Shown piece by piece: positions 1 through 38,792 of a stretch of DNA of 38,792 nucleotides. Location: the IMG/VR virus record IMGVR_UViG_3300042923_000395, positions 1-38,792 of that record; one strand, written 5' to 3'. Position numbers and translations under genes: made by a program. Under the pieces are notes generated by a model. That model was not told the origin of the DNA, made no database searches, and saw only the letters and a list, made by a program, of their open reading frames with translations. The DNA is from a virus. Numbering within the stretch: position 1 is the stretch's first letter; each line of letters opens with the position of its first letter.

Positions 1-1
1 T

Positions 2-319
2 CGCAGGGAATACATTAAGCAGCTTAAGCAATTAAGTGTAATAAACGTATACAATGCTTTAAATGGTAAAGTACTTCTTTGTTATGAGAAAGAGGGAAAA
101 TGCCATAGGCATATTATTGAAGAGTGGTTTAGACGAAATGATTTACCATGTGGTGAACTTCTCACAGGTAGTGAATGTACAACCTGCAGCAAGTGTAGGA
201 GAGGGTTTACCGCTTCAAGAGGTGGTGAAGTCAGCTGGGTATGTATGGAAACAGGTGAAATGATGACCATACATGAAAGTATGCTAAACTCTTGTGAGGA
301 TTGGAGGTATTTTGCATGA
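2..319 (+). CDS. hypothetical phage protein, 5' end outside window
   Basis: An open frame runs from the first bases of the window to a TGA that overlaps the next gene's ATG (ATGA), so this is the last 105 codons of a gene that starts upstream. The visible part has a Cys cluster (CTTCSKC, then further Cys residues near the end), which suggests a small metal-binding or zinc-ribbon fold. I do not recognise the family. The tight overlap with the next gene places it in the same rightward operon as the DNA polymerase. The frame is supported by the overlap and by the absence of internal stops; the function is unknown. Confidence 0.6.
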   Translation, partial: RREYIKQLKQLSVINVYNALNGKVLLCYEKEGKCHRHIIEEWFRRNDLPCGELLTGSECTTCSKCRRGFTASRGGEVSWVCMETGEMMTIHESMLNSCEDWRYFA

Positions 320-708
320 GGAATGAAACCATCAGTGTTTACATTGGTGTAATGCATTTACCTGTACCTTACATGTATAGTGTGTTTCCAAATCTTGAAG
401 ACCCTAAAGATGAATTGCAGTATCAATTACTTAAGCTAGAATATGCAATACTGCAAGCAGCTCAAGAAATAAGAGGAACTATTGAAACAATGGTTGATGC
501 TTTAAAACCATCTATTGAAGCTTTGGCTGAGGACTTTAGAGAGCTTAGTAATAAACTCTTTTACAATGAAATTAGTCCTGATGATGTTTTATATGAGCAA
601 ATGGAAGAGCTGCGACAGCACAGGTGCAATAACGTGATTAGTGATTATCATTACATGAGAGATAAAAGGAAGGAGGCACGAATGTATGTACGCAACCATA
701 GATATTGA
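316..708 (+). CDS. hypothetical protein upstream of the polymerase
   Basis: The start is taken as the ATG at 316, eight bases after GGAGG; an in-frame TTG at 301 lies before the RBS and is unlikely. The product has 130 residues: a hydrophobic N-terminal part (VYIGVMHLPVPYMYSVF) followed by mostly helical, charged sequence. No signal peptide, clear membrane span or known catalytic motif is visible. It overlaps the upstream gene by 4 nt and the polymerase gene by 23 nt, so the three are translationally coupled. The function is unknown; its position suggests a replication-linked accessory protein. Confidence 0.6.
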   Translation: MRNETISVYIGVMHLPVPYMYSVFPNLEDPKDELQYQLLKLEYAILQAAQEIRGTIETMVDALKPSIEALAEDFRELSNKLFYNEISPDDVLYEQMEELRQHRCNNVISDYHYMRDKRKEARMYVRNHRY

Positions 709-2419
709 AAGTACGGGACTAGACCGCTACAAAGAAGAGATTACATTTATAGGTGTGGGACTTGCCAAGAATGTCGGTGAACCAATATATAAATACTTCT
801 TTTATGATATGTCTGACCCTGAAGATGTAACGAAGTTTAGGAACCTGTGCAAAAATCTGAGGGAGCGTAAGGTAAAGACGGTATTCCAAGGAGGTAAATT
901 TGATACCCTTTTCATTGAATTGAAGGAAGACATTAAGTTACCCATAAGTGAGGACATATTGTTAATGGGTACAGCTTATGACCTTGCAGCTAACCATGCT
1001 TTGAAGACTAAAGGCAAAGAAAAAGGTATGGCTGAGAGATACTTAGGAGTATCTAATTGGGATATAAGCACTAAAGAAAAGACATCTAGAGATAAGAAAA
1101 AGGTCATACCATACTTGAAATTAGATGTTAAGTACACATGGGAGCTGTTTTGTTTCTTCTATGAGGAGCTATCACCTATACAGTGGAAGCACTACAGAAA
1201 GCTGTTAAAACCAGCATACCTTATGTATCGTGATGCAGAGAGACTTGGTATCTATTTTGACCGTAAAGAATACAAAGTCGTTAAGGCTAAATACAAAAAG
1301 CTTGAGGCTGAGAAGCTTGCTGAGCTTAAAAAGAAATATGATATCAATTGGAACAGCCCACAACAAAAGGCAAAGATACTATTCACGGATAAGAATGGTG
1401 AAAGATTGCCAGTCATAAAGAAGAGTAAGAAAACAGGTGCTCCTAGTGCAGATGCGGAAGTGTGTAAGAAGTTGGCAGTACAGGGTTATACCCTACCAAT
1501 ATTGCTATCAGAGTATACTGATGCCAATACACTTAATAAAATGTTCCTTAATAGATGGGGAGACGACAGCAGTTACGATGGAAGAATACACCCTAACTTT
1601 GGTTTATTCAATGTAAGAAGTGGCAGAACATCCTGTTCTAACCCAAACCTTCAACAAGTTCCTCGTAAAAAAGATGTTAGGTCACTATTCCACACTACAA
1701 AAGGTAAAGTATTCTTTGAAGCGGATTATTCTCAGTTGGAGCTTAGGATTGCTGCTGACTATGCTAATGAGCTTACCATGTTGAACATTTACAAGAACCA
1801 TGGAGATATACATACTGAGACTGCTAAAACTCTAACCAATGGAAGAGAACCTACCAAGGAAGAAAGAGGTGCAGCAAAAGCCGTTAACTTTGGTTTTATT
1901 TATGGTATGTTTGCAAAAGGCTTTGTAGATTATGCTTTCAATAGCTATGGTGTTGTGTTCACTTTAAACGAAGCCAAACATTACCGAGACTTATTCTTTG
2001 CGAAGTACCCAAGGCTATTGCCGTGGCATGAGGAGCAGAAGGAAATGGCACGAGCTCTTGGTGGTGTTAGTAATAAGTTTGGTAGATTTAGAAAGCTACC
2101 TGACATCTATTCCGATAATTGGTCATTGCGTGGAAGTGCTGAACGCATCAGCTTGAATACACCTGTTCAGGGTACTGGTTCAGATATACTGCTATCTGCA
2201 GCTATAGAAATCCACCAAGAGTATAAGAATGAAGGTGTAAGTATTGTTGGAACTGTACATGACTCTATCCTAGGAGAATGCTGGGAAGATGACGTAGAAT
2301 GGGTAGTACCAGAAATTCGTCGCATCATGACAAAGCCGAAACTGCTTGATGAGTTCGGTGTGCATTTGAAAGTGGAGCTGGAGTGTGACATAGGTGTTGG
2401 CAAGTGGGGAACTCACTAA
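686..2419 (+). CDS. family A DNA polymerase with 3'-5' exonuclease domain
   Basis: This is the replicative polymerase of the phage (577 residues). The N-terminal DEDD exonuclease shows D6-x-E8 in the DIEST motif, D73 in GGKFD and Y143-x3-D147. The polymerase domain carries motif A with D347 (DYSQLELR), motif B R394-x3-K398-x3-F402-G-x2-YG, and motif C VHDS with D526. The Phe in motif B, rather than Tyr, is the form usually linked to discrimination against dideoxynucleotides. There is no 5' nuclease domain, as is usual for phage family A enzymes. The ATG at 686 lies about 10 nt after AAGGAGG and starts directly with the exonuclease fold. No replicative helicase or primase is recognisable in the window; they may lie to the left of it. 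Confidence 0.95.
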   Translation: MYATIDIESTGLDRYKEEITFIGVGLAKNVGEPIYKYFFYDMSDPEDVTKFRNLCKNLRERKVKTVFQGGKFDTLFIELKEDIKLPISEDILLMGTAYDLAANHALKTKGKEKGMAERYLGVSNWDISTKEKTSRDKKKVIPYLKLDVKYTWELFCFFYEELSPIQWKHYRKLLKPAYLMYRDAERLGIYFDRKEYKVVKAKYKKLEAEKLAELKKKYDINWNSPQQKAKILFTDKNGERLPVIKKSKKTGAPSADAEVCKKLAVQGYTLPILLSEYTDANTLNKMFLNRWGDDSSYDGRIHPNFGLFNVRSGRTSCSNPNLQQVPRKKDVRSLFHTTKGKVFFEADYSQLELRIAADYANELTMLNIYKNHGDIHTETAKTLTNGREPTKEERGAAKAVNFGFIYGMFAKGFVDYAFNSYGVVFTLNEAKHYRDLFFAKYPRLLPWHEEQKEMARALGGVSNKFGRFRKLPDIYSDNWSLRGSAERISLNTPVQGTGSDILLSAAIEIHQEYKNEGVSIVGTVHDSILGECWEDDVEWVVPEIRRIMTKPKLLDEFGVHLKVELECDIGVGKWGTH

Positions 2420-2626: not shown

Positions 2627-3061
2627 ATGTCAGTAGCAAAAGTAAAAAAGGGTAGTAAGGTAATCTTATGTGGCTTCACAGGAATGAAGCTCGGTGTGTA
2701 TGCGGTAACAGCTGCAGATGAGAAGAAAGTCACAATCGAAAAGGCAGACGGAACTCAGTTGAGCTTCTCCCGCAAGGACGGTAAGCAGATTGGTGCGAAA
2801 AATCCTAAATATGGTAACTTCATTATTGAAGATGATGGTAGCTATGTGAACCCTCGTGAAGCTAAGAAGGCAGCTGAGAAAAAGGCAGGTAAGAAGGCTG
2901 ATACCAAGACCAAGAAGGTTAAGGAAGAAGTTATCGAGGAAGAGATCGAAGACGAAGAGGAAGAGAAGTCTAAGAAATCTAAGAAGGCTGATAAGAAGGC
3001 AGCTGGCAAGAAGTCTAAAAAGGCTTCTGACGATGAGGATGATTATGAGGAAGTAGAATAA
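2627..3061 (+). CDS. small beta-domain protein with Lys/acidic tail
   Basis: The start has a strong RBS (AAAGGAGG) and a promoter just upstream. The product has 144 residues. Residues 1-75 look like a compact beta fold, possibly SH3/KOW-like, with alternating hydrophobics and glycines (GSKVILCGFTGMKLGVYAV). Residues 80-144 are a low-complexity tail of Lys-rich (KKAEKKAGKK) and acidic (EEEIEDEEEEK, DDEDDYEEVE) blocks. The same kind of tail ends the SSB-like protein encoded about 2.4 kb downstream. A DNA-bound accessory role is plausible, but the family is not recognised. Confidence 0.7.
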   Translation: MSVAKVKKGSKVILCGFTGMKLGVYAVTAADEKKVTIEKADGTQLSFSRKDGKQIGAKNPKYGNFIIEDDGSYVNPREAKKAAEKKAGKKADTKTKKVKEEVIEEEIEDEEEEKSKKSKKADKKAAGKKSKKASDDEDDYEEVE

Positions 3062-3410: not shown

Positions 3411-4412
3411 GTGATTTACATCAAGATAAGCTATTCTAGAGTGTCATGTATGTTAAGTTGTCCTTACAAACACTATCTAGGGTATGTAAAGAGATTGCGA
3501 TTAAAAAAGCCTGTTAGACCGTTATATTTTGGTAGTGATTTTCACAAGCTACTAGAGTTTAGAAATGACAAAAAGGGCTTAAAGGTTGCTTTATCTGAAA
3601 TCAAAGAGAAGTTTTATGAGATGCCTGCATCATGGCAAAGTGACTTAGGTGAGGACTATGTACAAGACATTAGAGAAATTTTTACTGACTATCGCAGGGT
3701 ATATAAAGACACACCTCAACCACACGAAACAGAAAGACCCTTTGAAATCCTTATTGGATACTACAAAGGGGAGCCAGTTTACTTCATAGGAATAATTGAT
3801 GAGTTGTATAAGTACAAAAGGCACGGAGAAAAGTTCATTAAGGTAGGAGAGCATAAGACATTTAATAGAGCTCCCGACTTAAACACATTAGTAATGAATA
3901 CTCAGTCAAGCCTATATGCTAAAGCAACTCTATTAGAAACTGGCATTTTACCCAGTTCGGTAATTTGGGATTACATAAAGTCAACTCCTGCTAAGAGACC
4001 TATCTGGTTGGAGAAGACCCAGAGATTTAGTAATGCCAAGTCAGCCGATATCACACACTACAGCTGGAATAGAGCTTGTAAGGAACGTGAAATTGACGAT
4101 GAGAAAATCCTTAACCAAGGGTTAATTTACCAATCAAATATCACCAATTACTACAAGCGGATTGAGCTGGACTTACACCCTGGGATGGTGGACTCTGTTT
4201 GGGACGGTTTTGTGTATACTGCCAAACAGATTGTAGCTCACGGGGAGAAGAACAAGACCAAGAACATAACCATGAATTGTAAATGGTGTAACTACCGAGA
4301 TATCTGTTATGCTGAATTTACAGGTGGTGACGTTGACTATCTTATTAAGAAAAATTATGAAGTCAAAGAGGATAAGGTAGAAAGTATAGAACCAATTGAA
4401 GAGGAGACCTAA
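3411..4412 (+). CDS. PD-(D/E)XK nuclease, RecB/Cas4-like with Fe-S cysteines
   Basis: This is a RecB-family nuclease, 333 residues as drawn. Visible motifs are the N-terminal YSRVSCMLSCPYKHYL, GSDFHKLLE (His motif), D130 in GIIDELY, E147-x-K149 in VGEHKT, and the later QSSLYAKAT motif. Cysteines near the N-terminus (C13/C17) and the C-terminal C290-x2-C293-x5-C299 match the cluster that holds a 4Fe-4S centre in AddB/Cas4-type nucleases. The start is uncertain: GTG at 3411 lies too close to any RBS, and AGGTGA (3408-3413) would better serve an ATC at 3420. The next gene begins 1 nt after the stop. In related phages such nucleases sit with Sak4-like ATPases and SSBs, which suggests recombination or end processing. 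Confidence 0.85.
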   Translation: MIYIKISYSRVSCMLSCPYKHYLGYVKRLRLKKPVRPLYFGSDFHKLLEFRNDKKGLKVALSEIKEKFYEMPASWQSDLGEDYVQDIREIFTDYRRVYKDTPQPHETERPFEILIGYYKGEPVYFIGIIDELYKYKRHGEKFIKVGEHKTFNRAPDLNTLVMNTQSSLYAKATLLETGILPSSVIWDYIKSTPAKRPIWLEKTQRFSNAKSADITHYSWNRACKEREIDDEKILNQGLIYQSNITNYYKRIELDLHPGMVDSVWDGFVYTAKQIVAHGEKNKTKNITMNCKWCNYRDICYAEFTGGDVDYLIKKNYEVKEDKVESIEPIEEET

Positions 4413-4413
4413 A

Positions 4414-5169
4414 ATGGGATATTTAGATAGCGCAGTACCTATTGCTGAGTTAGGTCAAAGAAATCTATGGGTGCTGTGGGGTAAGAGTAACAGTGGTAAA
4501 ACGGAACTCGGCTCAACTTTCCCAAAACCCATACTATACTTAAGATTTGGTGACGATGGTAGTAACACTATTGCAAATGTGGGTGGTGTTAAGGCTATCA
4601 GTATCGAGGGTATGGAAAAGCCTAAGAAGCTAACTGCTACAGAGCACCTTAAAGAAGTGGCAAAAGAGCTACAAAAGGATAAGCAGTATAAGACCATTTT
4701 CGTAGACACATTTAGTATGCATACAAATGTATGGATTGATGAGAATGCTGTTCAGAAGAATAAGAAAATGACACAGCAGATGTGGGGAGACCTTAAGGTA
4801 GAGCAAGAGGAACTTGTGAAGATATTTCACAAGGTTGCATCTAACCACATAGTGGTTCTGTCGTGTCACGAAGCCTCAGATAATATTGAGGGTATGGAAG
4901 ACGAGATACTCCCTGACATTAGACCATCTATCACCAAAGGAGCTAGAACGTTCCTTGAGGGTATGGCTAACTATGGTATCCACACCACAAAGCTTAAGAA
5001 GACTATTACAAAAGGTGGTGTCGATAAGGAAGTGGTAAGATATGCAGCACATCTTGGTGCTAACCCGTATTACTGGACTAAGTTTCAAGTTGACAAAGGC
5101 ACAGATATACCAGAGGTCATGTTCAACCCAACTTATGATAAGATTATTAAGCTATTAGGAGGTGAATAA
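4414..5169 (+). CDS. Sak4-like RecA-fold ATPase
   Basis: The product has 251 residues from the ATG at 4414 (GAGGAG 7 nt upstream; a TTG at 4396 is a worse choice). It has a Walker A motif G23-KSNSGKT30 and a Walker B ending in D98 (TIFVDT), followed by regions typical of the AAA_24/Sak4 group of phage single-strand annealing or recombination ATPases. It lies between a RecB-like nuclease and an SSB-like protein, the usual company of Sak4. It probably loads on single-stranded DNA with the SSB to drive strand annealing or exchange. Family assignment rests on motifs, size and context. Confidence 0.75.
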   Translation: MGYLDSAVPIAELGQRNLWVLWGKSNSGKTELGSTFPKPILYLRFGDDGSNTIANVGGVKAISIEGMEKPKKLTATEHLKEVAKELQKDKQYKTIFVDTFSMHTNVWIDENAVQKNKKMTQQMWGDLKVEQEELVKIFHKVASNHIVVLSCHEASDNIEGMEDEILPDIRPSITKGARTFLEGMANYGIHTTKLKKTITKGGVDKEVVRYAAHLGANPYYWTKFQVDKGTDIPEVMFNPTYDKIIKLLGGE

Positions 5170-5170
5170 A

Positions 5171-5422
5171 ATGAGTCAAGCACAATGTGGTAGTGTAGCC
5201 CCTTCCCCTATAAGCATCTCAGGTTCTATCAATACCATTGAAGACCAGCAGGTCACAATTGCTAATATGGTTACCTCCATAGAGAGTGTTCTATATGGCA
5301 GTAACAATGAAAAACAGGCTAATGAGGCAGGCGGTGAAAGTATGGAGATAAGATTGAATAATATCGTAGCTGCTAATGAAAAGGTAATGTGCAAGTTAGA
5401 GCGCATTCTCACAAGAATGTAG
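5171..5422 (+). CDS. small hypothetical coiled-coil protein
   Basis: The start ATG follows GGAGG by 8 nt and directly follows the previous stop. The 83-residue product has a Ser/Pro/Ile-rich N-terminal third and a helical second half (VANEKVMCKLERILTRM style heptads), which could dimerise. No family is recognised. It sits between the ATPase and the SSB-like gene, so it may be part of the recombination complex. Confidence 0.55.
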   Translation: MSQAQCGSVAPSPISISGSINTIEDQQVTIANMVTSIESVLYGSNNEKQANEAGGESMEIRLNNIVAANEKVMCKLERILTRM

Positions 5423-5458
5423 TACAACCAATAATAAAATATTAGGAGGAAATGAGTA

Positions 5459-6256
5459 ATGGCATCAAGAAAAATTAAGGTAGATATGACTGGTGTAGAG
5501 TCATACCAAAAAGCATCTGAGGGTAGACATAAGGTGAAGATTGTATCAGCAGAACCCAAAGAGTCACAGGGTGGTAATGATATGATACAGGTAGCTTTCG
5601 AAGTCACAAATGGCAGTGATAAAGGCAGCCGTGTGTATGAGAAGTATCCACTCGTTGATACTGCCCTCTGGAAGCTTAAGGGTATGCTGCAGGCAATAGG
5701 CTTAAAGGCTGATAGCAAGATGGTTATTGACCTTGACAAGCTTATCGGTAAGAGCCTTGAGATTGAAGTAAAACATGAGGAATACAATGGTTCACTTTAT
5801 GCTAAGATTGACTCATATTACAAGTTAGGTGATACCTCTGATGAAGAGGAAGATGACGAGGACGAAGACGAAGAGGAAGAAAAGCCTAAGTCCAAGAAAT
5901 CCTCTAAACCAGCTCCAAAGTCCTCTAAGAAGAAGGTTGTTGAAGAGGATGAGGACGAAGACGAGGATGAGGAAGATGAGGATGAAGATGAGGAAGAGGA
6001 AGATGAGAAGCCTAAAAAGTCCTCTAAAAAGGCTCCTGCTAAGCCCTCAAAACCCACTAAGGGTAAGAAAAAGGTAGAAGAGGAAGACGATGAGGAAGAT
6101 GAAGAGGATGAGGATGAGGAAGAAGAGGATGAAAAACCTAAGAAATCCTCTAAGAATAAGTCTTCTGACAAGTCAAGCAAGAAATCCTCTAAAGGTAAGA
6201 AAAAACCTAAAGATGATGACGAGGACGATGATGAAGAGGACTGGGAAGACGCTTAA
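5459..6256 (+). CDS. SSB-like protein (DUF669 type) with long acidic/Lys-Ser tail
   Basis: The start ATG is 9 nt after AGGAGG. Residues 1-122 of 265 resemble the DUF669-type OB-fold of phage single-strand binding proteins, with a core containing DMIQVAFEVTNGSDKGSRV and LWKLKGMLQAIG. Residues 124-265 form a tail in which acidic blocks (DEEEDDEDEDEEEE) alternate about four times with basic Ser/Lys/Pro blocks (KPKKSSKK). SSB tails are usually acidic and recruit partners, but this one is unusually long and mixed in charge. The repeated codons make the tail prone to length change. The upstream Sak4-like ATPase fits with a joint recombination role. Confidence 0.75.
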   Translation: MASRKIKVDMTGVESYQKASEGRHKVKIVSAEPKESQGGNDMIQVAFEVTNGSDKGSRVYEKYPLVDTALWKLKGMLQAIGLKADSKMVIDLDKLIGKSLEIEVKHEEYNGSLYAKIDSYYKLGDTSDEEEDDEDEDEEEEKPKSKKSSKPAPKSSKKKVVEEDEDEDEDEEDEDEDEEEEDEKPKKSSKKAPAKPSKPTKGKKKVEEEDDEEDEEDEDEEEEDEKPKKSSKNKSSDKSSKKSSKGKKKPKDDDEDDDEEDWEDA

Positions 6257-6291
6257 TTCATCTGTTAACTAACACTATAGGGGGAGTTTAA

Positions 6292-7275
6292 ATGGCTCCC
6301 CTCTATAATTTGGAGGGTATTACCTTGGAAAGAAAAGAAATGTTAAGGACGCTTGCACAACTAGACCTATCTAAGATGCCTCATATCTTCATACCATCTT
6401 GGAATAGACCTGACTTTGTAAGTGCAAGGTTATTTGAGAATTTTAGCAGTAAAGAGCGTGAAAAGGTGCACATCGTAGTAAGGCATAACCAATACAAGAA
6501 ATATGCAAAAGCTCACCCCAATTTACATATTCTACCTATACCAGCAGATTACCCCGTTAACGGGCTAGCAAGCACACGGCAGTTTATATTTGAGTATGCC
6601 GTGGAACATCGTTACTCCGTAATCATAGATATGGATGATGATATTAAGCACCTAAGATTTATGTACGAGGGTGTTTCTAGTCGAGGAGTTGCCACCACAA
6701 AGCACTCATTAAAAGAGGATGAAGAAAAAGACCATCAGTTCAACCAAAAAATACTTTGTTTGGCTGCGTCCATATCAAAAGATATTTTTAGAGAACATCC
6801 TAGAGTAATGCTTGGTAACCTACATCGGCAAAAGGCTTGCTTTAATGTGCAATATGGCAAGCTTAAATATGTGGTCAACCGTGAAACAACTCCACGGCAG
6901 GTGACCTTACTAAATGTAAAGGCACTGCATAAGGCAGATATCAACCGAAACACTAAATTGTTTGACACACATGGTGACGACATTGGATTTACCGCTGAAA
7001 TCCTTAAACATGGTGGCTGGTGCTTCAATATCCCGTGCCTTGGCTATGAGTACTTAAGTGAGAAGTGTGACTCTGTAATGCGTACTCCTGAAAATGAGAA
7101 GGAGCTCCATGCATATGAATATGCTGTGCTTCAAAATTACCCTATCAAAGACTACTTAAGATGTACATTCTTAGATGAGGATGGTAACCCTATGTGGAAT
7201 GATGTGGACTGGCGAAAGTATCATAAGGTACACGGCACACAACCTATCATGAAGTATTGGAGGGATTGCGAATGA
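6292..7275 (+). CDS. GT-A glycosyltransferase, TET-associated (TAGT) type
   Basis: The 327-residue product shows a GT-A nucleotide-sugar transferase layout: IFIPSWNRPD at residues 32-41, GLASTRQFIFEYA near 91-103, and the metal-binding acidic motif IIDMDDDI with D113 and D115-D117. An acidic GDDIGFTAEIL stretch at about residue 226 is a candidate for the general base or acceptor site. The pattern PSxxR...RxxxxEYA...DDDI is what I know from the glycosyltransferases found with TET/JBP and hydroxymethylpyrimidine genes in phages. A thymidylate-synthase homologue and nucleotide kinase lie downstream, so the likely substrate is a hydroxymethylated base in phage DNA. An RBS (GGGGGA) precedes the ATG. 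The sugar donor cannot be told from sequence. Confidence 0.65.
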   Translation: MAPLYNLEGITLERKEMLRTLAQLDLSKMPHIFIPSWNRPDFVSARLFENFSSKEREKVHIVVRHNQYKKYAKAHPNLHILPIPADYPVNGLASTRQFIFEYAVEHRYSVIIDMDDDIKHLRFMYEGVSSRGVATTKHSLKEDEEKDHQFNQKILCLAASISKDIFREHPRVMLGNLHRQKACFNVQYGKLKYVVNRETTPRQVTLLNVKALHKADINRNTKLFDTHGDDIGFTAEILKHGGWCFNIPCLGYEYLSEKCDSVMRTPENEKELHAYEYAVLQNYPIKDYLRCTFLDEDGNPMWNDVDWRKYHKVHGTQPIMKYWRDCE

Positions 7276-7556
7276 GCCAAATATCTGTTGTCGTAAAGAA
7301 TGGTGATAACACAGAGCTTAATACCAAACTATCAGAGGGCTGGAAGTTTGTGAGTGCTACTCCTGTTTCCAACCATGTGACTGTTTCCACATCCTGTGGC
7401 AGCCAGTACTTTGGTTACTTACGAGAGAGTGAGCGTGGAGATACCCTCATTCTTGTCATCCTTGAAAGTCACGGGTGTGTACAGTATCTCGATGGTATTC
7501 CTCGAAAGGAGGAAACAGCTTGTGATGAACCGTTTGGAGCAAACTGGAATAAGTAG
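7272..7556 (+). CDS. hypothetical protein
   Basis: The ATG at 7272 overlaps the glycosyltransferase stop (ATGA) and follows GGAGGG by 8 nt. The product has 94 residues: an N-terminal beta-rich part (SQISVVVKNGDNTELNTKL, GWKFVSATPV) resembling short phage DUF1737/DUF4177-type single-domain proteins, then a polar C-terminus. The function is unknown. It is coupled to the glycosyltransferase. Confidence 0.6.
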   Translation: MSQISVVVKNGDNTELNTKLSEGWKFVSATPVSNHVTVSTSCGSQYFGYLRESERGDTLILVILESHGCVQYLDGIPRKEETACDEPFGANWNK

Positions 7557-7713
7557 TGCTTGTGATATGATATGTGCAGGAAATGTAGAAAAGATGGAGT
7601 TACCTAAATCTTCACTAGCATCTACACATAAAGCTATCAAAGCCTACAAAGTACCAAGTAAAAACCCTAAGAAGTATACAGTTAGGGTAGACATTCAAGT
7701 AGAGGAGGATTAA
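7525..7713 (+). CDS. small hypothetical protein
   Basis: The 62-residue frame begins at ATG 7525, or GTG 7522, 9-12 nt after AGGAGG and inside the end of the preceding gene. The open frame extends further upstream but without an RBS. The product is basic in the middle and ends in a beta-like YTVRVDIQVEED. No family is recognised. The gene is supported by its RBS, its overlap and the 2 nt gap to the next gene. Confidence 0.5.
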   Translation: MNRLEQTGISSACDMICAGNVEKMELPKSSLASTHKAIKAYKVPSKNPKKYTVRVDIQVEED

Positions 7714-7715
7714 TT

Positions 7716-8015
7716 ATGTCATATGGTGTTCCTAAGAAGAAAATGGTTTCAAAGAGCAGCCCAAAAAGACATTCACCAACCGCATTTGAACTGTTGGTAG
7801 AGGAGTTAGACGAATTGGACAGTGATTTAGACCGTGAGGAAAAGAAAATCGAAGGTCTAAAAGAGTCATTATATGAAGCAGAGACTAAATTTAATGCGCT
7901 TAGTATTAAGCGTAAGTACTTAGCACAAGCGGTAGAGGAATGCCGTGAGTTATGTGAAGAGCTCACAAGCAACGATGACAGTAACAAGTCATGGGAAGAG
8001 GAGGATGAAGAATAA
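7716..8015 (+). CDS. coiled-coil hypothetical protein
   Basis: The product has 99 residues. After a basic N-terminus (GVPKKKMVSKSSPKRH), residues 24-85 form a strongly predicted coiled coil with heptad leucines (LVEELDELDSDLDREEKKI), and the C-terminus is acidic. The RBS is GAGGAGG, and the stop overlaps the kinase start (TAATG). It may dimerise. No function is assigned. Confidence 0.6.
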   Translation: MSYGVPKKKMVSKSSPKRHSPTAFELLVEELDELDSDLDREEKKIEGLKESLYEAETKFNALSIKRKYLAQAVEECRELCEELTSNDDSNKSWEEEDEE

Positions 8016-8497
8016 TGCTAATAGTATTAGAAGGTTGTGACGGAACAGGAAAGACCACGCTTGCAAACAGTTTGGCAGCTATCATGAATGCTGAGGTAAT
8101 ACATTGTAGTCAATACACACCAAATGACTACTTCTTTTTCCATCAAATAATTGAGGCAAGCAAGACCAAGAATATCGTAGCAGATAGGTTTATGTATGGT
8201 CAATTCATATACCAAGAAGAGGAAGACCGTCACTTAAGTGGTATTGGTATGGATGAACGCTACCGCTCATCTTTGGAGCATTTACATATACTTGAAGCGG
8301 AATTACTTGCTGCTGGTGGTAAGTTGGTGCATGTTACGGCTCCAGATGATGAGATTAAGGAACGACTTGCTGCACGAAATGAACTCCTCATAAATGGCTT
8401 AACCGTTGAAGATGTGCAAGCCCGTTTCAGGGGAACATTTAAGCTCTCCATGTTACCTATTGTTACTTGGAATACAGGTAGATACCAATTCGATTAG
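8015..8497 (+). CDS. P-loop deoxynucleoside monophosphate kinase-like protein
   Basis: The 160-residue product has a Walker A at residues 7-15 (GCDGTGKTT), a DR motif at D57-R58 in VADRFMYGQFIY as in thymidylate and deoxynucleoside kinases, and a short lid region (IKERLAARN). It is shorter than dTMP kinase (about 210 residues) and T4 gp1 (241), so the lid and base-recognition parts are reduced. It lies directly before a dCMP hydroxymethylase-like gene. The probable job is to phosphorylate the modified dNMP on the way to its triphosphate. A plain dTMP kinase role is the main alternative. Confidence 0.75.
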   Translation: MLIVLEGCDGTGKTTLANSLAAIMNAEVIHCSQYTPNDYFFFHQIIEASKTKNIVADRFMYGQFIYQEEEDRHLSGIGMDERYRSSLEHLHILEAELLAAGGKLVHVTAPDDEIKERLAARNELLINGLTVEDVQARFRGTFKLSMLPIVTWNTGRYQFD

Positions 8498-8509
8498 GAG
8501 GATATTGTA

Positions 8510-9577
8510 ATGGTGTATAAAAAGAGGTTAGAAGAAAGCAAGAGAAGTAATCACCGACCCGTCATGAACGTTCAGCACACTGCAGTCACTTTAGATGATG
8601 CATGGTTATTTTGGTACAATGAGTTGGCAAAAAGGGCTGCAGGAGGCTCCAGTGACAGCAGAGACGGTGCTGTTGTAGGTGAAATAATTAATGCAACAAC
8701 AGTAATTCTTAATCCCACCATGAATATCATGAAGAATCAGGTACGTAAGTTACCAATGAGATATATGATTGGGGAACTTCTTTGGTATCTAAGTGGTAAT
8801 CCGTCATTGGATGCTATTAGAAATTATACAGATGCATGGGACAGAATGTCTGACGACGGTAAGTATGTTAACAGTAACTATGGTAATTTAATACAAGAGT
8901 GTGTAGACTTCCATGGAGACACCGCTGTATTCAATCAATATGACTATGTAAAAGACTTGCTTAAGAGGGATAAAAATACTCGTCAAGCTGTCATCCACAT
9001 AAAGACACCAAGAGACACAAGGGTTCACCCGACCAAGGACTTGAATTGTACCGTTTGTCTTCAATTTTTTATCCGCGATGGTGCCTTACATATGACTACA
9101 TACATGCGTAGCAATGATTTATGGATGGGCTTCCCTAACGACATCTTCCAGTTCACCTGTATCCAGATACGTCTTGCTATGGAGCTTGGTGTTGACGTTG
9201 GGTATTACACCCATATTGCTGGCTCGTTGCACTTATATGAAAGAGATTATAACAAGTCTCTTGAAAATATGACAACAGGTGTTTGTACCGATGGTATCAC
9301 CACAGGTAGAACAGGGTGTAAAACCCCTAATGTCAGTGCCGTTCCTCGTACAATTAATGAGCTAAGAGAAAGACATGGGTGTACCATTCCGTGTGAAGAG
9401 TGTAAACCAGAACGCTTTCACGCTTGCTTAGAAGGTAACCAGTTACCCATGGAAGAGACTATAGAGGAACTTGTAGGTCAGGATGAGGGTCATTATGGTG
9501 TAGACCCTGCTTACTTTGAGGAGTGTGTTAAGTCACCTATGACTGACCCTGATGACAGCTGGGAAGATTGCCTGTAG
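8510..9577 (+). CDS. thymidylate synthase homologue, probable dCMP hydroxymethylase
   Basis: The 355-residue product aligns by eye with ThyA through ELLWYLSGN, the catalytic C180 in LNCTVCLQF, R200-S-N-D203 (E. coli R166), and H241-L-Y243 (E. coli H207/Y209). The position matching E. coli N177 is D211 in GFPNDIF. In T4 gp42 the same Asn is Asp, and this shift changes substrate preference from dUMP to dCMP. With a kinase and glycosyltransferase nearby, dCMP 5-hydroxymethylation is the best guess; dCMP methylation is possible. About 60-80 residues beyond the usual ThyA length form a Cys-rich extension (HGCTIPCEECKPERFHAC) and an acidic end. The RBS is AGGAGG. Confidence 0.8.
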   Translation: MVYKKRLEESKRSNHRPVMNVQHTAVTLDDAWLFWYNELAKRAAGGSSDSRDGAVVGEIINATTVILNPTMNIMKNQVRKLPMRYMIGELLWYLSGNPSLDAIRNYTDAWDRMSDDGKYVNSNYGNLIQECVDFHGDTAVFNQYDYVKDLLKRDKNTRQAVIHIKTPRDTRVHPTKDLNCTVCLQFFIRDGALHMTTYMRSNDLWMGFPNDIFQFTCIQIRLAMELGVDVGYYTHIAGSLHLYERDYNKSLENMTTGVCTDGITTGRTGCKTPNVSAVPRTINELRERHGCTIPCEECKPERFHACLEGNQLPMEETIEELVGQDEGHYGVDPAYFEECVKSPMTDPDDSWEDCL

Positions 9578-9593
9578 GGAGGGGCTTATACAA

Positions 9594-9959
9594 ATGAAGC
9601 TTAAGAAAATTCTACTTAAAGTGGTAGATGAAGAAACTGACAAGCTAGGATGGTATCATCTTGCATACGCAGACGAAAGGGTATATCTTGGATTTTTAAG
9701 TAAACTTGGATGCAGCCGTATTGAGTTCGCTGAGTATGTCGGAAAGTGGGCACAAAATGATTTTAATATATCGCTCTCTATGACTCACAAAAACGACATA
9801 TTGGTGCTTAAGAAGCTTGTGCAGGAAAGATACCACAAAGCTCATCCATATCTGTTTGTGCCTACGAAAACGGATAGACAGGGATGGATGAGGGCTTGGG
9901 TAATGAAGAAAATGGTGGAGGAGATAAGATATTATGGACAACCAAAAGAACAAGCCTAA
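9594..9959 (+). CDS. hypothetical protein
   Basis: The ATG at 9594 follows GGGAGGGG; an upstream in-frame ATG at 9552 would overlap the previous gene without an RBS. The 121-residue product has an N-terminal beta segment, a mixed middle (GFLSKLGCSRIEFAEYVGKW) and a basic C-terminus. No known motif is visible. It overlaps the next gene by 26 nt, which suggests translational coupling with the HAD phosphatase. Confidence 0.6.
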   Translation: MKLKKILLKVVDEETDKLGWYHLAYADERVYLGFLSKLGCSRIEFAEYVGKWAQNDFNISLSMTHKNDILVLKKLVQERYHKAHPYLFVPTKTDRQGWMRAWVMKKMVEEIRYYGQPKEQA

Positions 9960-10407
9960 CTGTATAGGATGGGTTGACAGGCATAGTATAGACTGCGCTG
10001 TATGTGGTAGCTTAGAGGAGTGCCAGCAAAAAAGCAACCCGAAATCTGAAAACAAGCAGGATGAGACAAAACTACCTAGGATTATAGTAACAGATTTTGA
10101 CGGGACTCTTGTAGAGAACAGGTTCCCCGAGATTGGTAGGATTATGCCATATACATGGGACAGGATTAAGCAGGAGCAGGAAAACGGTGCTAAGATTATT
10201 CTGTGGACTTGTAGAAATCATGAAGCTGTGGACGCTGCAGTAGCTTTTTGTGCTGAAAACGGGCTAGTGTTCGATGCCGTGAACGAAAATCTTCCTGAGG
10301 TACAAAAAATGTTTGGTGGGGATACACGTAAAGTATTCGGAAATGAATACTGGGATGACCGTGCTAATCCGGAGTTTTCCTTCAATTTTCATAAGGCGGT
10401 GGGCTAA
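9934..10407 (+). CDS. HAD-family phosphatase with N-terminal Cys cluster
   Basis: The product has 157 residues. Residues 10-30 carry C10, C21-x2-C24 and C30, a possible zinc site. The HAD domain follows, with nucleophile D54 and D56 in IIVTDFDGTL, a motif II-like IILWTCRN, and YWDDRANPE near the end as the acidic motif IV. The domain lacks a large cap, as in phage and polynucleotide-kinase-type HAD enzymes. In this nucleotide-metabolism operon it could act on nucleotides or DNA ends. The stop overlaps the next start (TAATG). Confidence 0.75.
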   Translation: MDNQKNKPNCIGWVDRHSIDCAVCGSLEECQQKSNPKSENKQDETKLPRIIVTDFDGTLVENRFPEIGRIMPYTWDRIKQEQENGAKIILWTCRNHEAVDAAVAFCAENGLVFDAVNENLPEVQKMFGGDTRKVFGNEYWDDRANPEFSFNFHKAVG

Positions 10408-10637
10408 TGAAGGTGATTTTAATCAGTGTTGCCTACATAGTTATTGCTTTGATTGTCACGGGAATTATGTACCATTTACGACCATTCAAACATGACTTCC
10501 GCTCAATCGAGGAGGAGAACGGGTGCTATGTGGTAGCAGGTTGTTTATTTCCTGTGGTAGTGATACTACTTATTACATATCACGTATTTCTAATCCCATT
10601 TAAAGTTGTTGACAGGATACATGGTAGGAGGAAATAA
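10407..10637 (+). CDS. small membrane protein with two spans
   Basis: The product has 76 residues and two hydrophobic helices, at about residues 3-22 (ILISVAYIVIALIVTGIM) and 42-66 (VAGCLFPVVVILLITYHVF), joined by a charged loop, with a basic C-terminus. It overlaps both neighbours by one base (TAATG). It has no recognised family. Its site within the replication genes suggests an early membrane-acting accessory protein rather than a holin. Confidence 0.65.
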   Translation: MKVILISVAYIVIALIVTGIMYHLRPFKHDFRSIEEENGCYVVAGCLFPVVVILLITYHVFLIPFKVVDRIHGRRK

Positions 10638-10999
10638 TGCCATTAGAGAGCACGATACAGAGTAGTATACTTAAGTATCTAAATAGTTTGCCAGATTGCG
10701 TAGCCGAAAATGTGAGTGGAAACGCTGCACAGTCTGGTAGACCAGATATAAATGCATGTATAGAGGGTTGCTCCTACCGTATCGAGGTAAAGAGTCCTGA
10801 CCATGGGTATATGCCATCAAAGAAACAGATAACCAATCTTAAAAGGTGGGCTCGTGCAGGTGCTATTTGTGTGGTAGTTTGGAGTCTTGATGAGGTTAAG
10901 TTCATTGTCAAGAAAAAAGGAGCATTCAGCAGTAAATTTACTGGCTGGTATATATTTGAAGATGGTGCAATATGGAAGGGGTCACACCCAGATGATTAA
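10637..10999 (+). CDS. VRR-NUC domain nuclease
   Basis: This is a stand-alone VRR-NUC (PD-(D/E)XK) protein of 120 residues, a usual length for phage versions. Visible catalytic residues are D37 in SGRPDI, E50-V-K52 in YRIEVKSP, and the following SKKQ with Q64, then WARAGAICVVVWS as the last core strand. Such proteins act on branched DNA as structure-specific nucleases. The RBS is AGGAGG. It lies in the cluster that ends with a SNF2 helicase, the usual pairing in Clostridia phages. Confidence 0.9.
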   Translation: MPLESTIQSSILKYLNSLPDCVAENVSGNAAQSGRPDINACIEGCSYRIEVKSPDHGYMPSKKQITNLKRWARAGAICVVVWSLDEVKFIVKKKGAFSSKFTGWYIFEDGAIWKGSHPDD

Positions 11000-11011
11000 G
11001 GAGGTTAGCAT

Positions 11012-11431
11012 ATGCGTTCAAAAAGACATCTTTGTGATAGCTGTACTCAGAATTTCCCTGAATGTGATACAACCAATGAAGACATTGTGTATGGTAACGG
11101 GGTAGGAAATGATAATGTGATGGAGTGCCAGAAGTACCAGAGCAAAGAGTTATCCATATCAGAAGATATCAAGGAGAGAGTTATAGCTTGTTTACAAGAC
11201 ATTATAACAAAAAGAGGGTTGAGGGTAAGTTTTGAAATTATCAATATCTTGCCAGTTGAGTGGGGTACGTTAAGAGTCATTGTTAAGTACAAAGGAGTAG
11301 ATTTAAGGCTTGCTGAGGAGTTTAACTACAAGCAGATACACACAGGTGAAACAACCATTACTGAGGTGTGTGATTTCATAATAACCAGTATCATCTGCAC
11401 ATGGAATGCACGCCTATTTGAGGAGACATAA
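11012..11431 (+). CDS. hypothetical protein with N-terminal Cys motif
   Basis: The product has 139 residues. Residues 8-39 hold C8-x2-C11, C18 and C39, which could bind one zinc ion. The C-terminal 90 residues look like a mixed alpha/beta domain (RVSFEIINILPVEWGTLRVI). The start follows GGAGG, and the stop overlaps the helicase start (TAATGA). No family is recognised; coupling to the helicase suggests a partner role. Confidence 0.6.
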   Translation: MRSKRHLCDSCTQNFPECDTTNEDIVYGNGVGNDNVMECQKYQSKELSISEDIKERVIACLQDIITKRGLRVSFEIINILPVEWGTLRVIVKYKGVDLRLAEEFNYKQIHTGETTITEVCDFIITSIICTWNARLFEET

Positions 11432-23677: not shown

Positions 23678-23932
23678 TTATGTAAAATTTTTGTACATAG
23701 CACTAAAACTAGTGTAATGTTTACGGAAGACAGGTTCTTCACCATTGTCCATCCTAAAAATGATAAGTGCACAGGCTTCATCTAGGCAGTATGCAGTGTA
23801 AGCGTCATCTTGAATACCAATAAGTTCGCTGGGTCGCTTATTATAAATCCTCACCATCTTTACTAACTCCAGTATCATCTGACTGCCCACGAAAGGACTC
23901 CAATGCCTTAACACCTTTTTGGGAGTATCCAA
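23678..23932 (-). CDS. gpT-like extension of the tail assembly chaperone (frameshift product)
   Basis: This 84-codon frame overlaps the end of the gpG-like gene and ends just before the tape measure gene, the position of gpT. It has only a TTG at its 5' end and no RBS, so it is probably made as a gpG-gpT fusion by ribosomal frameshifting. The frame is +1 (or -2) relative to gpG and is open from 23938, after a TGA. The tract CCCAAAAAGG at 23914-23923 is the best slip site. The translated part after the gpG stop includes YNKRPSELIGIQDDAYTAYC, a typical gpT-like sequence. Confidence 0.75.
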   Translation of the reverse strand: MDTPKKVLRHWSPFVGSQMILELVKMVRIYNKRPSELIGIQDDAYTAYCLDEACALIIFRMDNGEEPVFRKHYTSFSAMYKNFT

Positions 23933-33180: not shown

Positions 33181-34509
33181 TTAAGCACCTCTTCTACTAT
33201 TTCTTATGATTTCCTTCACATTAGCAACCGTGTAACCATCCAAGCCATACCAAATAGCCGAAAATGTATGAGGGTCAATGTTGAACTCATCATATATAAG
33301 CTGGTCTTTAGAGTCCTTTGCGTAGGTCAATGTCTTTAGCTCCCTAACCGTGTTCTTACACTCAGGAGATACAACTATTTTCCTAAACCTCTTGACCTTC
33401 TTAGTATTAGCAAGTCTTGAGCCAGCGAATTTCTTACAACCTCTTATCTTAAACCCTTCCTGCTTGTAGAATTGGATTGCTTTAGGGTCTTCACAATCAG
33501 CTATAATCTGCTCCTCTTGAATATTGCTATCCCATACGAGAAGTTCCTTAACTGTCTTATCATCTGTCATCTTGTTCTTATAGAACTCTTTGTAAATGTA
33601 GAGTATTTTATTTTTATCATCAATCGCCATCTTGATAACGGCATTGTATGAAGTCTCAAAACCAAAGTCAAAGCCAATTCTCCTAAGCTTCTTAGGTATT
33701 GCTACCACTTCACGCATTACATCTAAATGAGAAGCAGCAACCTCCAACTGAGGTAAAACCCTGATACCATTCATACCGAACCTACCAAGTCTTGCAACCC
33801 TATATAGGTCTGGGTCATAGCTTTGTAACTCATCCAGTGTCTTAAGGTAAGACTTAGGAAGGAATAGGTTGTCGTCAGGTAGTGAGTGGTGATAGTAGAC
33901 ACCATTCTTAATGATTGTGTGCTTTGCGTAGAGTCGTTCATCATCCAGTACTATAATCTCATTACCATCCTCATCTACCCTCTTGAAGAAATGGGTGTAA
34001 ACCCAGTTTTCCGTACCAACAGGATTAGTGGATAGTATAAAGTGAAGAGATAATGTCGGATGTCTTAAACGTCCTAAGAGCTCTTTGTAGCCTGCATACT
34101 TAATTTCGCTACACTCTTCTAACCAAACAATAGAAACACCATTTATAGACTTAAGCTTTGCAGGCTTATCCATGCCTTTAAAGATTATCTTACTACCGTT
34201 AGGGAATGTTAGAGTAAATGGACTTTCCTTCGCCATTACCTTACGTTTCCTTTGCCTAGGAGAGTCAGCTAGTAAATCAAGCTCTTCCAGTATTTCACAG
34301 AATAGGGAATAAGTACTTTCACGGTGTGTATCGTATACTTCACGTACAACCAATACTTTTCGCTTCTCCTCAAGGCACTTAGTAATAATTTTAAATGCAA
34401 TATGATAGGATTTCGATGAGCCATAGCCACCAACAAGTAAGTAAGTTAGGTAATCCCAGTCAAATATGAACTCTTCAAACCTAGGATTGACTTCCTTCTC
34501 AATGTTCAT
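33181..34509 (-). CDS. terL: large terminase subunit (PBSX/SPP1 type)
   Basis: The product has 442 residues. The ATPase domain has Walker A G27-GYGSSKS34 and Walker B ending IVWLEE (E131/E132). The nuclease domain has the RNase H-like metal ligands in RIGFDFGFE (about residue 285), IIADCEDPKAI, and a final NIDPHTFSAIWYG. This is the Terminase_3 class that packages DNA by headful cutting in SPP1-like phages. The start is ATG 34509; GTG 34524 is possible. It overlaps the upstream small gene by a few bases. Confidence 0.95.
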   Translation of the reverse strand: MNIEKEVNPRFEEFIFDWDYLTYLLVGGYGSSKSYHIAFKIITKCLEEKRKVLVVREVYDTHRESTYSLFCEILEELDLLADSPRQRKRKVMAKESPFTLTFPNGSKIIFKGMDKPAKLKSINGVSIVWLEECSEIKYAGYKELLGRLRHPTLSLHFILSTNPVGTENWVYTHFFKRVDEDGNEIIVLDDERLYAKHTIIKNGVYYHHSLPDDNLFLPKSYLKTLDELQSYDPDLYRVARLGRFGMNGIRVLPQLEVAASHLDVMREVVAIPKKLRRIGFDFGFETSYNAVIKMAIDDKNKILYIYKEFYKNKMTDDKTVKELLVWDSNIQEEQIIADCEDPKAIQFYKQEGFKIRGCKKFAGSRLANTKKVKRFRKIVVSPECKNTVRELKTLTYAKDSKDQLIYDEFNIDPHTFSAIWYGLDGYTVANVKEIIRNSRRGA

Positions 34510-34703
34510 ATGTAAATCACCCACACTCCAATGTATTTAACTACATTTATAGACTCTACATTTCGATGGTGTACTTCAGCAGTTATCATAGGGTCAAAGC
34601 TCTTTACAGTACCATGATACACTTCTTCTTTATCAACCATGATAGTAACTGTAAGGTTATCATTCAGTTGTGTCATTAGCTCTTGAAATTCGATACTGTT
34701 CAT
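34506..34703 (-). CDS. small hypothetical protein between the terminase subunits
   Basis: The product has 65 residues and is alpha/beta, with LNDNLTVTIMVDKEEVYHGT. No family is recognised. ATG 34703 follows GGGGTGA at fair distance, and an in-frame GTG lies 6 nt upstream. Its stop overlaps the TerL start. Confidence 0.55.
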   Translation of the reverse strand: MNSIEFQELMTQLNDNLTVTIMVDKEEVYHGTVKSFDPMITAEVHHRNVESINVVKYIGVWVIYI

Positions 34704-34834: not shown

Positions 34835-34960
34835 TTATTTTTTCTCTTTTGCCTTACTGCTGATGAAAACTGCCACGGCACAAAGGACTAACACACCAAC
34901 TATTGAACCAGCTCCAAACCCTAACCAGAATACTTGTCCAGCGGATAAACTAATCGTCAT
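34835..34960 (-). CDS. 41-residue membrane protein, DUF3789-like
   Basis: The product is a single transmembrane helix (FWLGFGAGSIVGVLVLCAVA) with a short N-terminus and a basic end (SSKAKEKK). This size and the GxGxxxG-type N-terminal helix fit the tiny DUF3789 membrane proteins of Bacillota phages and mobile elements. The ATG at 34960 has GGAGG 8 nt upstream and overlaps the TerS stop by 11 nt. Confidence 0.65.
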   Translation of the reverse strand: MTISLSAGQVFWLGFGAGSIVGVLVLCAVAVFISSKAKEKK

Positions 34961-35660
34961 CGTTGTCTTCCTCCTTCTTCTTTCTGGTAACAGTGATTGT
35001 AATATTGTTATCACCTTCTTCACCATCCAGTAAGTCTTTCTTAAGTTGAAATTCTTGTTGTCGTAACTTACGAAGTTCAACCATGTTTTCTATCTCAGCT
35101 TGTTCTTTTCTGGATAACCAATTAAAAGCATTGTCTAAGACAAATCTACTACCGTTGTATCCATCTTTATCGTACAGCCTACATTCTGCATATGCTTCTA
35201 TACGCTGCCGTGCCCTTTTTATTACCGTACTATACTGGTCACTTTCATTTACATCGAACCCTAAGTCATCTTTATAGCCTTTTTCGTATCGCTTTAAGAC
35301 GTTTGTGTCGATATCCAGATACAATGCTAGACCACTAATAGTATAGGGCTTTATCTGTCCCGTTACTGGCATTCCTCTTTTGTCTAAATAAGGTTTACCA
35401 GTTTTATGATTGTACAGGACACCATCACATGATGCAAAGTATTCCTCACATAAGGCTCTTAAGTGGTCTGGGCTTTGAAATTTTCTTCTTTCGTAGTTGT
35501 TAGAGCCACCAAAGATAGGTCTGCGTATCGCACGCATGTCTAATTTCACTACCCTATCGCTTACCCATTCGTATCGTCGTGGAGTGCGTTTCGGTACTCT
35601 AATGACGAGAATGTCTTCATTATTTTTCACAGCCATTAGTCTGCTAACGTCTCCTTTCAT
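34950..35660 (-). CDS. terS: small terminase subunit
   Basis: The product has 236 residues. FQSPDHLRALCEEYFASCDG, then GQIKPYTISGLALYLDIDTN (helix-turn-helix) and the later KRARQRIEAYAECRLYD fit the Bacillota TerS family. It recognises the packaging site and regulates TerL. The C-terminus is acidic/basic low complexity. The start at 35660 has a weak GAGG; ATG 35636 has AAAGGAG but 14 nt away. It is the first gene of the late operon. Confidence 0.85.
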   Translation of the reverse strand: MKGDVSRLMAVKNNEDILVIRVPKRTPRRYEWVSDRVVKLDMRAIRRPIFGGSNNYERRKFQSPDHLRALCEEYFASCDGVLYNHKTGKPYLDKRGMPVTGQIKPYTISGLALYLDIDTNVLKRYEKGYKDDLGFDVNESDQYSTVIKRARQRIEAYAECRLYDKDGYNGSRFVLDNAFNWLSRKEQAEIENMVELRKLRQQEFQLKKDLLDGEEGDNNITITVTRKKKEEDNDDD

Positions 35661-35686
35661 TCTGTCGTTTCGTCCTCACAGGAAAC

Positions 35687-35715
35687 ATTATCCATCATGC
35701 GTGAAGAAATGTCAA
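35687..35715 (-). promoter_or_regulatory. late operon promoter
   Basis: On the minus strand TTGACA (35710-35715) and GATAAT (35687-35692) are separated by 17 bases. The expected start is about 20 nt before TerS. It lacks the TTTTAAAA double box and extended -10 of the early-type promoters, so it may be controlled differently. Confidence 0.75.
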
Positions 35716-36015
35716 TCTTTACCTTTAAAGTAAATAAAGTGTTTACAAAAAAGATTTTTCAACCAAGAAAAACGTCAGTTTTGGGGTGACCGTTTGCATA
35801 GACCACTAACAGAAGCACAGCGCAGCGTAAGAGGCAGGACACAGTCCGTAACCATGCAAAACAAAAACACCGAAAAATCAAAAGATATGCCTTTTTTTGA
35901 CAGGGGTTCGTTGTAGGCAGTTGATGTCTTTTTTCATTACCTGCTCCAGTAAAAGGCAAGACGAAACTGTTAGCGGAGATAGTAAATTTTCATATCAACC
36001 TTATGAGCTTATCCG

Positions 36016-36572
36016 CCTGTTTTTGCTGCAGTCCCATTCAATTTAAAAATTTTCGATTTTCAAAAAATAAATTTTTTTCTTTTCTTTTTCTGCAGAAATC
36101 GGTGATAGAAAAGATAGAAAAAAGATATACCTAAAGATATAGAGCGTCTCTCGTAATTTTACCTTTGATTTTCTCCTAGCTGCTTTATGACGTTCCAGTA
36201 TCTTTGAAGCCTGTCAACGCAAAACCTGTTTTTGCAGAAAAAGATATACGAAAAAAACCTGTTTCTGACGTTTTTTCTGCTGCGCTTTCGCACACGAAAG
36301 TGAGCCAATCGAAAATTTTCGTCTCCAGTCCTGCGGAAGAGGAACAAAAACAGGTTTTTCTCGAAGCAAAGTTACAATCTTTGTATAAATGTTTGCCTTT
36401 TTTTGCAGAGTCAGTCGAAAAATCCTTATGAAAAAAGCCTGTTTCTGCAGGAAAAAACCTGTTTTTGAAATTTCAAGATACAAACTCCGACGATTTCTGA
36501 TTTCCTGGAGAGGAAAAATCTGTGCAGATTTTCAGAGTTTTGAGATACAAAAATTTTCAAAAACAGGTTTTT
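36016..36572. repeat. CCTGTTTTTG repeat array
   Basis: Copies begin at 36016, 36225, 36258, 36438 and 36458 (plus orientation), and at 36345 and 36558 (inverted). Several are flanked by A-runs on one side and GCAG on the other (AAAACCTGTTTTTGCAG). Two inverted pairs form long perfect stems: 36221-36234 with 36345-36358 (14 bp), and 36453-36470 with 36555-36572 (18 bp). A degenerate copy is at 36396. Confidence 0.8.
36453..36572. ncRNA. nested inverted-repeat element (structured RNA or cruciform)
   Basis: The outer 18 bp perfect stem (AAAAACCTGTTTTTGAAA) encloses an inner AAACTC/GAGTTT stem (36482-36487/36535-36540). Inside that are two hairpins: TTTCCT-GGAG-AGGAAA (36501-36516) and AAAATCTG-TG-CAGATTTT (36515-36532), which overlap by two bases and may alternate. 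It ends about 40 nt before a promoter. No known RNA family is recognised, so it could act as DNA or RNA. Confidence 0.4.
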
Positions 36573-36613
36573 ATACATACTTCAGGATTTCGAAAAATTC
36601 TTTACAAAAATGC

Positions 36614-36642
36614 TTGACAAATTTTCAAACTTAGTGCATAAT
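36614..36642 (+). promoter_or_regulatory. promoter of the rightward small-gene cluster
   Basis: TTGACA (36614-36619) and CATAAT (36637-36642) are 17 bases apart. It precedes the gene at 36679 by about 30 nt. Its upstream sequence differs from that of the early promoter family. Confidence 0.8.
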
Positions 36643-36678
36643 ACCTTTAAAGCAAAATTTTACAGAGGAGGAAAGAAA

Positions 36679-36852
36679 ATGATTTTCACAATCATAATCA
36701 AGGAAAACGGGAGTGAAAATGCCTTGTACCAGTACTGTAACGAACCCAATTATGAAGCAGCAAAACAATATGCAAAAGAAAATTATGCATCTTACGTGTA
36801 CAGTTCCACTCACACTGTTAGCATAAGTATGATTAGACACAGTTTAAGATAA
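36679..36852 (+). CDS. small hypothetical protein
   Basis: The ATG at 36679 has GAGGAGG upstream; the frame is open further upstream into the promoter, which argues for this start. The 57-residue product begins MIFTIIIKENGSENALYQYC and has an alpha/beta feel, similar in style to the protein encoded at 38102. The function is unknown. It is the first gene of the rightward cluster. Confidence 0.65.
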   Translation: MIFTIIIKENGSENALYQYCNEPNYEAAKQYAKENYASYVYSSTHTVSISMIRHSLR

Positions 36853-38604: not shown

Positions 38605-38792
38605 ATGAAGAAGGAATTTGTAGCAAATTGGAACAACCACAGCACACAGACAATCGAAACAGAAGGACTAACCGATAACGAAGTAGCAGCCATGATAGCT
38701 GCAAGAAATAATGAGTTTAATGATGCACTCGAAGAGAGACGTTGTGGTACATGGAATTTCACCGTGCAAGAGAATAGCGGTATCAATGCTAA
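38605..38792 (+). CDS. hypothetical protein, 3' end outside window
   Basis: The ATG has AGGAGG upstream and the frame stays open to the last base of the window (62 codons seen). It begins MKKEFVANWNNHSTQTIETE and contains a helical NEVAAMIAARNNEFNDALEE. No family is recognised. It is read from the promoter just upstream. Confidence 0.6.
   Translation, partial: MKKEFVANWNNHSTQTIETEGLTDNEVAAMIAARNNEFNDALEERRCGTWNFTVQENSGINA

Follow-up and report, generated by a model that had tools for sequence, protein, structure and literature searches.

A putative iteron-containing replication origin in the divergent region of an uncultivated phage

Introduction

The alpha protein of the satellite P4 carries a primase, an SF3 helicase and a C-terminal winged helix in one polypeptide; this last domain binds the origin repeats, and the primase is of the bacterial (Toprim) type (PMC4234260). 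In the Rep protein of SaPI elements and the Cch2 protein of SCCmec, short iterons are recognised by the C-terminal domain, and the SaPI and SCC origins are found directly downstream of the helicase gene (PMC7581432).

In our study, a 38.8-kb virus record without end repeats (IMGVR_UViG_3300042923_000395; the whole stretch of 38,792 nucleotides is called the window) was analysed computationally, and a repeat array in its non-coding divergent region was identified which is very probably the DNA replication origin of the phage. We give a probability of about 0.78 to the reading in which the iterons are bound and opened by the phage's own Prim-Pol/D5-type SF3 primase-helicase. To our knowledge, origins are rarely known for uncultivated phages, and our literature searches found no paper on the origin of this lineage.

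The divergent region of the window

A non-coding region of about 1 kb separates two diverging gene arms, the left arm consisting of the terminase and structural genes and the right arm of early genes. Each arm edge bears a near-consensus sigma-70 promoter and the array sits between both. The relevant features are as follows:

35662..36678, no strand: putative replication origin, non-coding divergent region with the iteron array
35687..35715, minus strand: sigma-70-type promoter TTGACA-17-GATAAT, driving the leftward terminase/structural block
36614..36642, plus strand: sigma-70-type promoter TTGACA-17-CATAAT, driving the rightward early block
34950..35660, minus strand: small terminase subunit, TerS (GP3_package)
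33181..34524, minus strand: large terminase subunit, TerL
36679..36852, plus strand: first rightward early ORF, 57 aa, with a GGAGG ribosome-binding site
686..2419, plus strand: family A DNA polymerase (PolA), part of the shared replication module
3411..6256, plus strand: exonuclease, Sak4-like ATPase and DUF669 protein, also in the shared replication module

The record is incomplete at its ends (window 1-700 and 38700-38792), where the primase-helicase and further early genes, found just upstream of PolA in relatives, are missing. A 15-mer, TACCTTTAAAGYAAA, is present as a direct repeat at 35720 and 36642. The TerS of the window, used as a query against viral and genome collections, retrieved no relatives, and a host search among genome contigs gave no match.

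Window positions 6292-10407 encode a TET-associated glycosyltransferase (PF20691), nucleotide-kinase-like and thymidylate-synthase-like proteins and a HAD phosphatase, which likely form a DNA hypermodification cassette; relatives add a protein with a 5-hmdU DNA kinase domain (PF18723) to this gene set. A small unclassified protein family (window 2627-3061; 4941-5294 in G021) is encoded after PolA, and in several relatives another copy lies close to the array.

Iterons, stems and the AT-rich tract

The version of the motif in the window is an asymmetric iteron of about 10 bp, an A-tract followed by CAGG, and its copies are distributed as follows:

35890..35899, minus strand: iteron variant CAAAAAAAGG
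36016..36025, minus strand: iteron CAAAAACAGG, exact
36225..36234, minus strand: iteron CAAAAACAGG, exact
36258..36267, minus strand: iteron variant CAGAAACAGG, spaced 33 bp from the copy before it
36345..36354, plus strand: iteron CAAAAACAGG, exact, inverted
36396..36405, minus strand: iteron variant CAAAAAAAGG
36438..36447, minus strand: iteron variant CAGAAACAGG, spaced 42 bp from the copy before it
36458..36467, minus strand: iteron CAAAAACAGG, exact, spaced 20 bp from the copy before it
36558..36567, plus strand: iteron CAAAAACAGG, exact, inverted; forms an 18-nt perfect stem with 36453-36470

The first-pass annotation had described seven motif copies in both orientations, and these were recovered as five exact copies of CCTGTTTTTG, which is CAAAAACAGG read on the other strand (36016, 36225 and 36458 on the plus strand; 36345 and 36558 on the minus strand), together with two copies of CCTGTTTCTG (36258 and 36438, plus strand). 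Two copies of CCTTTTTTTG (35890 and 36396, plus strand) bring the total within one mismatch to nine. The best 10-mer family of the region has these nine members, whereas in 300 dinucleotide shuffles its size averaged 3.7 and never exceeded 7. Exact CAAAAACAGG/CCTGTTTTTG was not found in the rest of the window, so that, as in iteron origins, a short asymmetric motif is confined to one non-coding region. An exact 15-mer sought among viral contigs gave scattered single chance matches, and a paired-motif pattern search gave no match.

The long-range stems of 14 and 18 nt reported earlier are present. The stretch 36221-36234 pairs perfectly over 14 nt with both 36345-36358 and 36558-36571, a perfect stem of 15 nt also occurs in the region, and the 18-nt perfect core belongs to a 21-nt stem of 95% identity (36453-36473/36552-36572). 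A perfect inverted repeat of at least 18 nt was reached by 4 of 300 shuffles, which makes it uncommon and not unique. The palindrome CTGCAG does lie in the array (36026, 36090 and 36445); it is however common elsewhere too (17 in the window). A second palindrome, CGAAAATTTTCG, was found at 36310 as described. The proposed secondary motif AAGATATAC occurs in the array at 36122 and 36241 and outside it at 16553 and 9681.

The strongly AT-rich tract noticed in the first pass was located, and its low thermodynamic stability makes it a candidate unwinding element next to the iterons, as in iteron origins:

36042..36141, no strand: candidate DNA unwinding element, AT-rich and the least stable tract in the region

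It is 80% AT, and by nearest-neighbour stability just 0.07% of window positions are less stable, among them the early promoter region nearby, at 36,822. In 16 of 17 cases (14 of 15 records, together with G033 and G036) the array contains the contig's least stable 100 bp, the window being a near-lowest case in which the tract falls in the lowest 0.1% with other positions lower. The cumulative GC skew, suggested earlier as a check, does turn at the array; this adds little because it is confounded with gene direction, which the skew tracks.

Equivalent arrays in related phages

Related contigs were gathered by scans with the large terminase, PolA and later a primase-helicase, and arrays were detected through an unbiased screen of 1-kb windows for over-represented words. 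An equivalent array was found at the equivalent place in 18 uncultivated phage contigs. Each phage has its own version of the motif within a family pattern of A4-6, one to two nucleotides and mostly CGG, AGG or TGG, the word heads after the A-tract and its one or two bases being [CAT]G[GT]. The versions found were:

AAAAATAGGC: G002, G003, G005
AAAATTAGGC: G004
AAAAAGTCGG: G001, G010
AAAAATCGG: G008, G016, L134
AAAAATTGGC: G023
AAAAATCG[GT]C: G021, G029, G030, G035, G037
AAAAATAGTC: G031

The arrays of G033 and G036 are weaker and still significant. All 17 arrays tested exceeded 100 of 100 shuffles, and exact copies of each phage's own word numbered 55 within the arrays against 3 outside.

Across the set of arrays, same-strand neighbours are spaced by 10-12, 20-23, 31-33, 41-44 and 61-66 bp. 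This corresponds to a helical phasing of about 10.6-10.7 bp (Rayleigh R 0.69, n=78, reached by 0 of 5000 jittered nulls; an all-pairs version was also run), and same-strand iterons lie on one helical face. The phasing expected of an iteron origin is a property of the array set, the window alone contributing three spacings (20, 33 and 42 bp) and being less regular than its relatives. In L134, G008, G023 and G031 a repeated unit was recognised which consists of three direct copies 31-33 bp apart and one inverted copy.

Other repeats and inserts were also observed in this material. In L162 (1501-3000), a different dense repeat family, TGACGCACAA, reaches 17 copies per kb when one mismatch is allowed; it precedes a related gene for the large terminase, on its upstream side. 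G038 (49001-50770; L308), whose primase-helicase is distant (27%), has its own repeat cluster of TGTAAAAAC (11 per kb), which is possibly another divergent origin. The PolA gene is split by inserts in two relatives, G001 (7947-11152; inserts of about 0.6-0.9 kb) and G010 (6103-8001; about 0.2 kb), as inteins or introns would do (loci L215 and L227).

The candidate initiator

A fused protein of about 640 aa is encoded in all seven of the genomes with other terminases and in the five W-type genomes compared. Its signatures are Prim-Pol, PriCT, D5_N, SF3 helicase (DUF5906) and an RFX/Pox_D5-like winged helix, the domains having been read on G002 (Pfam). Among the core proteins, a sequence-specific DNA-binding fold was recognised only in this primase-helicase, and the solved structure closest to it is 7ola, the primase-helicase of SaPI5 (HMM E 1e-20; also by Foldseek). 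The C-terminal domain was folded and searched alone because the fold search with the whole model was dominated by D5-type helicases. The resulting AF2 model (pLDDT 82) matched RFX DNA-binding domains (Z 10.6 for RFX5, and 9.2) and also 1ka8, the origin-binding domain of P4 (Z 8.0 over 74 residues, 2.5 A); since the tool quotes a background level not far from Z 8, the Pfam RFX/Pox_D5 evidence matters here. A C-terminal winged-helix origin-binding domain of the P4/SaPI type is thus predicted in the relatives.

In the relatives the gene lies just upstream of PolA, and the corresponding place in the window falls off the left contig end. We infer the identity of the initiator for this reason, and the pairing of the window array with a primase-helicase rests on analogy with the relatives. 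By the same analogy, the primase-helicase would be the iteron binder; another early protein, e.g. of the p2627-like family, could be the binder instead. A RemA-like protein (PF04025) was considered and rejected in this role, as it is present in just 4 of 15 records (near the array in G002 at 23696-23932, with equivalents in G001, G005 and G010).

In 12 phages the wing strand sorts with the class of motif, REA[SC]W going with AAAAATCG-type and similar C-G motifs and RDY/EY/EL with the others. This covariation is striking, yet it is suggestive only and serves as a lead, because the tree leaves just one informative contrast (G008 versus G023).

Alternative explanations

The strongest rival is a purely regulatory array, at which a phage DNA-binding protein would shift transcription from early to late at the two divergent promoters in the manner of operators or stoperators, without a role in replication. 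The array is situated exactly between these promoters, in a region which may also serve transcription control, the helical phasing would also suit cooperative regulators, and RemA, to which a protein of some relatives is similar, binds periodic AT-rich repeats (PMC8481266). However, most array-bearing phages are without the RemA-like protein, the exact motif is absent from the other early promoters, and a strongly destabilised tract would be superfluous for regulation alone. A stoperator or immunity system would further go with a temperate lifestyle and sites at several promoters, but no integrase or resolvase was found in the 15 records and the exact motif occurs in this region only. A purely regulatory role is unlikely in our judgement; regulation could nevertheless coexist with origin function.

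Pac and cos sites are often located upstream of the gene for the small terminase subunit, and many relatives have the array immediately before this gene, as would be expected of a packaging site whose repeats are bound by the adjacently encoded small subunit. Such a site should follow the small subunit in evolution, and the array does not. In G021 the array and its motif family persist between TerS and the early block, although its TerS has no similarity to that of the window and its TerL is barely similar; the homologues shared with the window are PolA, exonuclease, Sak4, DUF669, thymidylate-synthase-like, HAD, VRR and SNF2 proteins. The array is likewise kept in G029, G030, G031 and G035, with TerL 25% identical and a TerS homologue undetectable, and these four together with G036 and G037 extend it to other terminase types. 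PolA, exonuclease, Sak4, DUF669 and SNF2 are homologous in the array carriers with other terminases. Conversely, 66 loci of the same TerL family at TerL identity of 66% or less (L136-L201) showed an A-tract array in one by word scan (L147, which is G016), a further short contig with the array being L134 (TerL 66%). Because it is kept across terminase swaps and is mostly absent at the loci with TerL identity of 66% or less, the array tracks the replication/early module, at whose side it is present wherever this module is visible, and not packaging, and terminase recognition is improbable as its function.

The nested stems could also form RNA according to the first-pass annotation, as a structured non-coding RNA or a processing site, and the folding energies are indeed below those of shuffles (z -4.6 on the plus strand, -3.3 on the minus strand). 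This reading was not supported. The long stems arise because motif copies are inverted and are a by-product of the iterons; no stem is kept among the relatives since the number, order and orientation of copies differ from phage to phage, and an Rfam search of the region gave no match. With neither a conserved secondary structure nor a known family, an RNA function is still less probable than a packaging site. Partition loci, too, can have iteron arrays at divergent promoters, but a ParA-type ATPase (PF13614), the type that was searched for, is absent from the 15 records, which leaves a centromere-like site for plasmid-like maintenance the least credible explanation.

Proposed mechanism

The origin reading, already favoured in the first pass from the motif and the AT-rich tract, is supported by sister arrays in the same place with phage-specific motifs, by the helical phasing, by the location of the least stable DNA in the array and by the association with the replication module across terminase swaps. 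Replication would start at the array. The asymmetric iterons of about 10 bp on one helix face may be bound by the C-terminal winged helix of the fused Prim-Pol/D5-type SF3 helicase, and cooperative assembly would bend the A-tract-rich DNA and melt the neighbouring unwinding element (about 36,042-36,141). Helicase hexamers would then be loaded, unwind and prime, with the phage PolA extending the primers, and forks would probably leave both ways along the divergently transcribed arms.

More tentatively, this may be a virulent lineage with hypermodified-DNA genes in which large A-tract arrays are read by a single Prim-Pol/D5 primase-helicase. The arrays would often be modular (three direct copies 31-33 bp apart and one inverted, often duplicated), and iteron and wing would co-diversify, leaving related phages unable to share origins; this wider picture is possible, but less likely than not. 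With about 18 related candidate origins, many having aligned initiators and differing motifs, a winged helix-iteron code becomes directly testable.

Comparison with known systems

The nearest named phage is bajarodcaudo virus 5 (PQ006096.1), which has homologous PolA, SNF2 protein, terminase and primase-helicase (about 39%). Like the window, it has a divergent region with tandem short repeats (44,967-46,437), and like the array phages it has the least stable 100 bp of its genome (at 45,844) inside this region. Unlike in the window, its repeats are tandem units of TTTCGCTACTTAA/TTTCGCAATCAATAA, TerS lies about 9 kb from the region, and A-tract-CGG iterons were not recognised in this region.

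In comparison to SaPI and SCC elements, where the origin directly follows the helicase gene, the array is about 9 kb from this gene (G002), between the terminase and early operons; the likeness to SaPI5 lies in the phages' primase-helicase, for which 7ola is the nearest solved relative. In comparison to P4, the relatives' protein similarly joins a primase, an SF3 helicase and a predicted C-terminal winged helix aligning to 1ka8. Its primase is however an archaeo-eukaryotic Prim-Pol and not of the Toprim type, the motif sequence and the layout of copies differ, and the system here serves a larger phage with its own PolA in place of a satellite. The array is most likely a P4/SaPI-like iteron origin driven by a primase-helicase in a new phage setting, and this would extend SaPI/P4-style initiation from satellites to larger phages with 5-hydroxymethyluracil-type DNA-modification genes.
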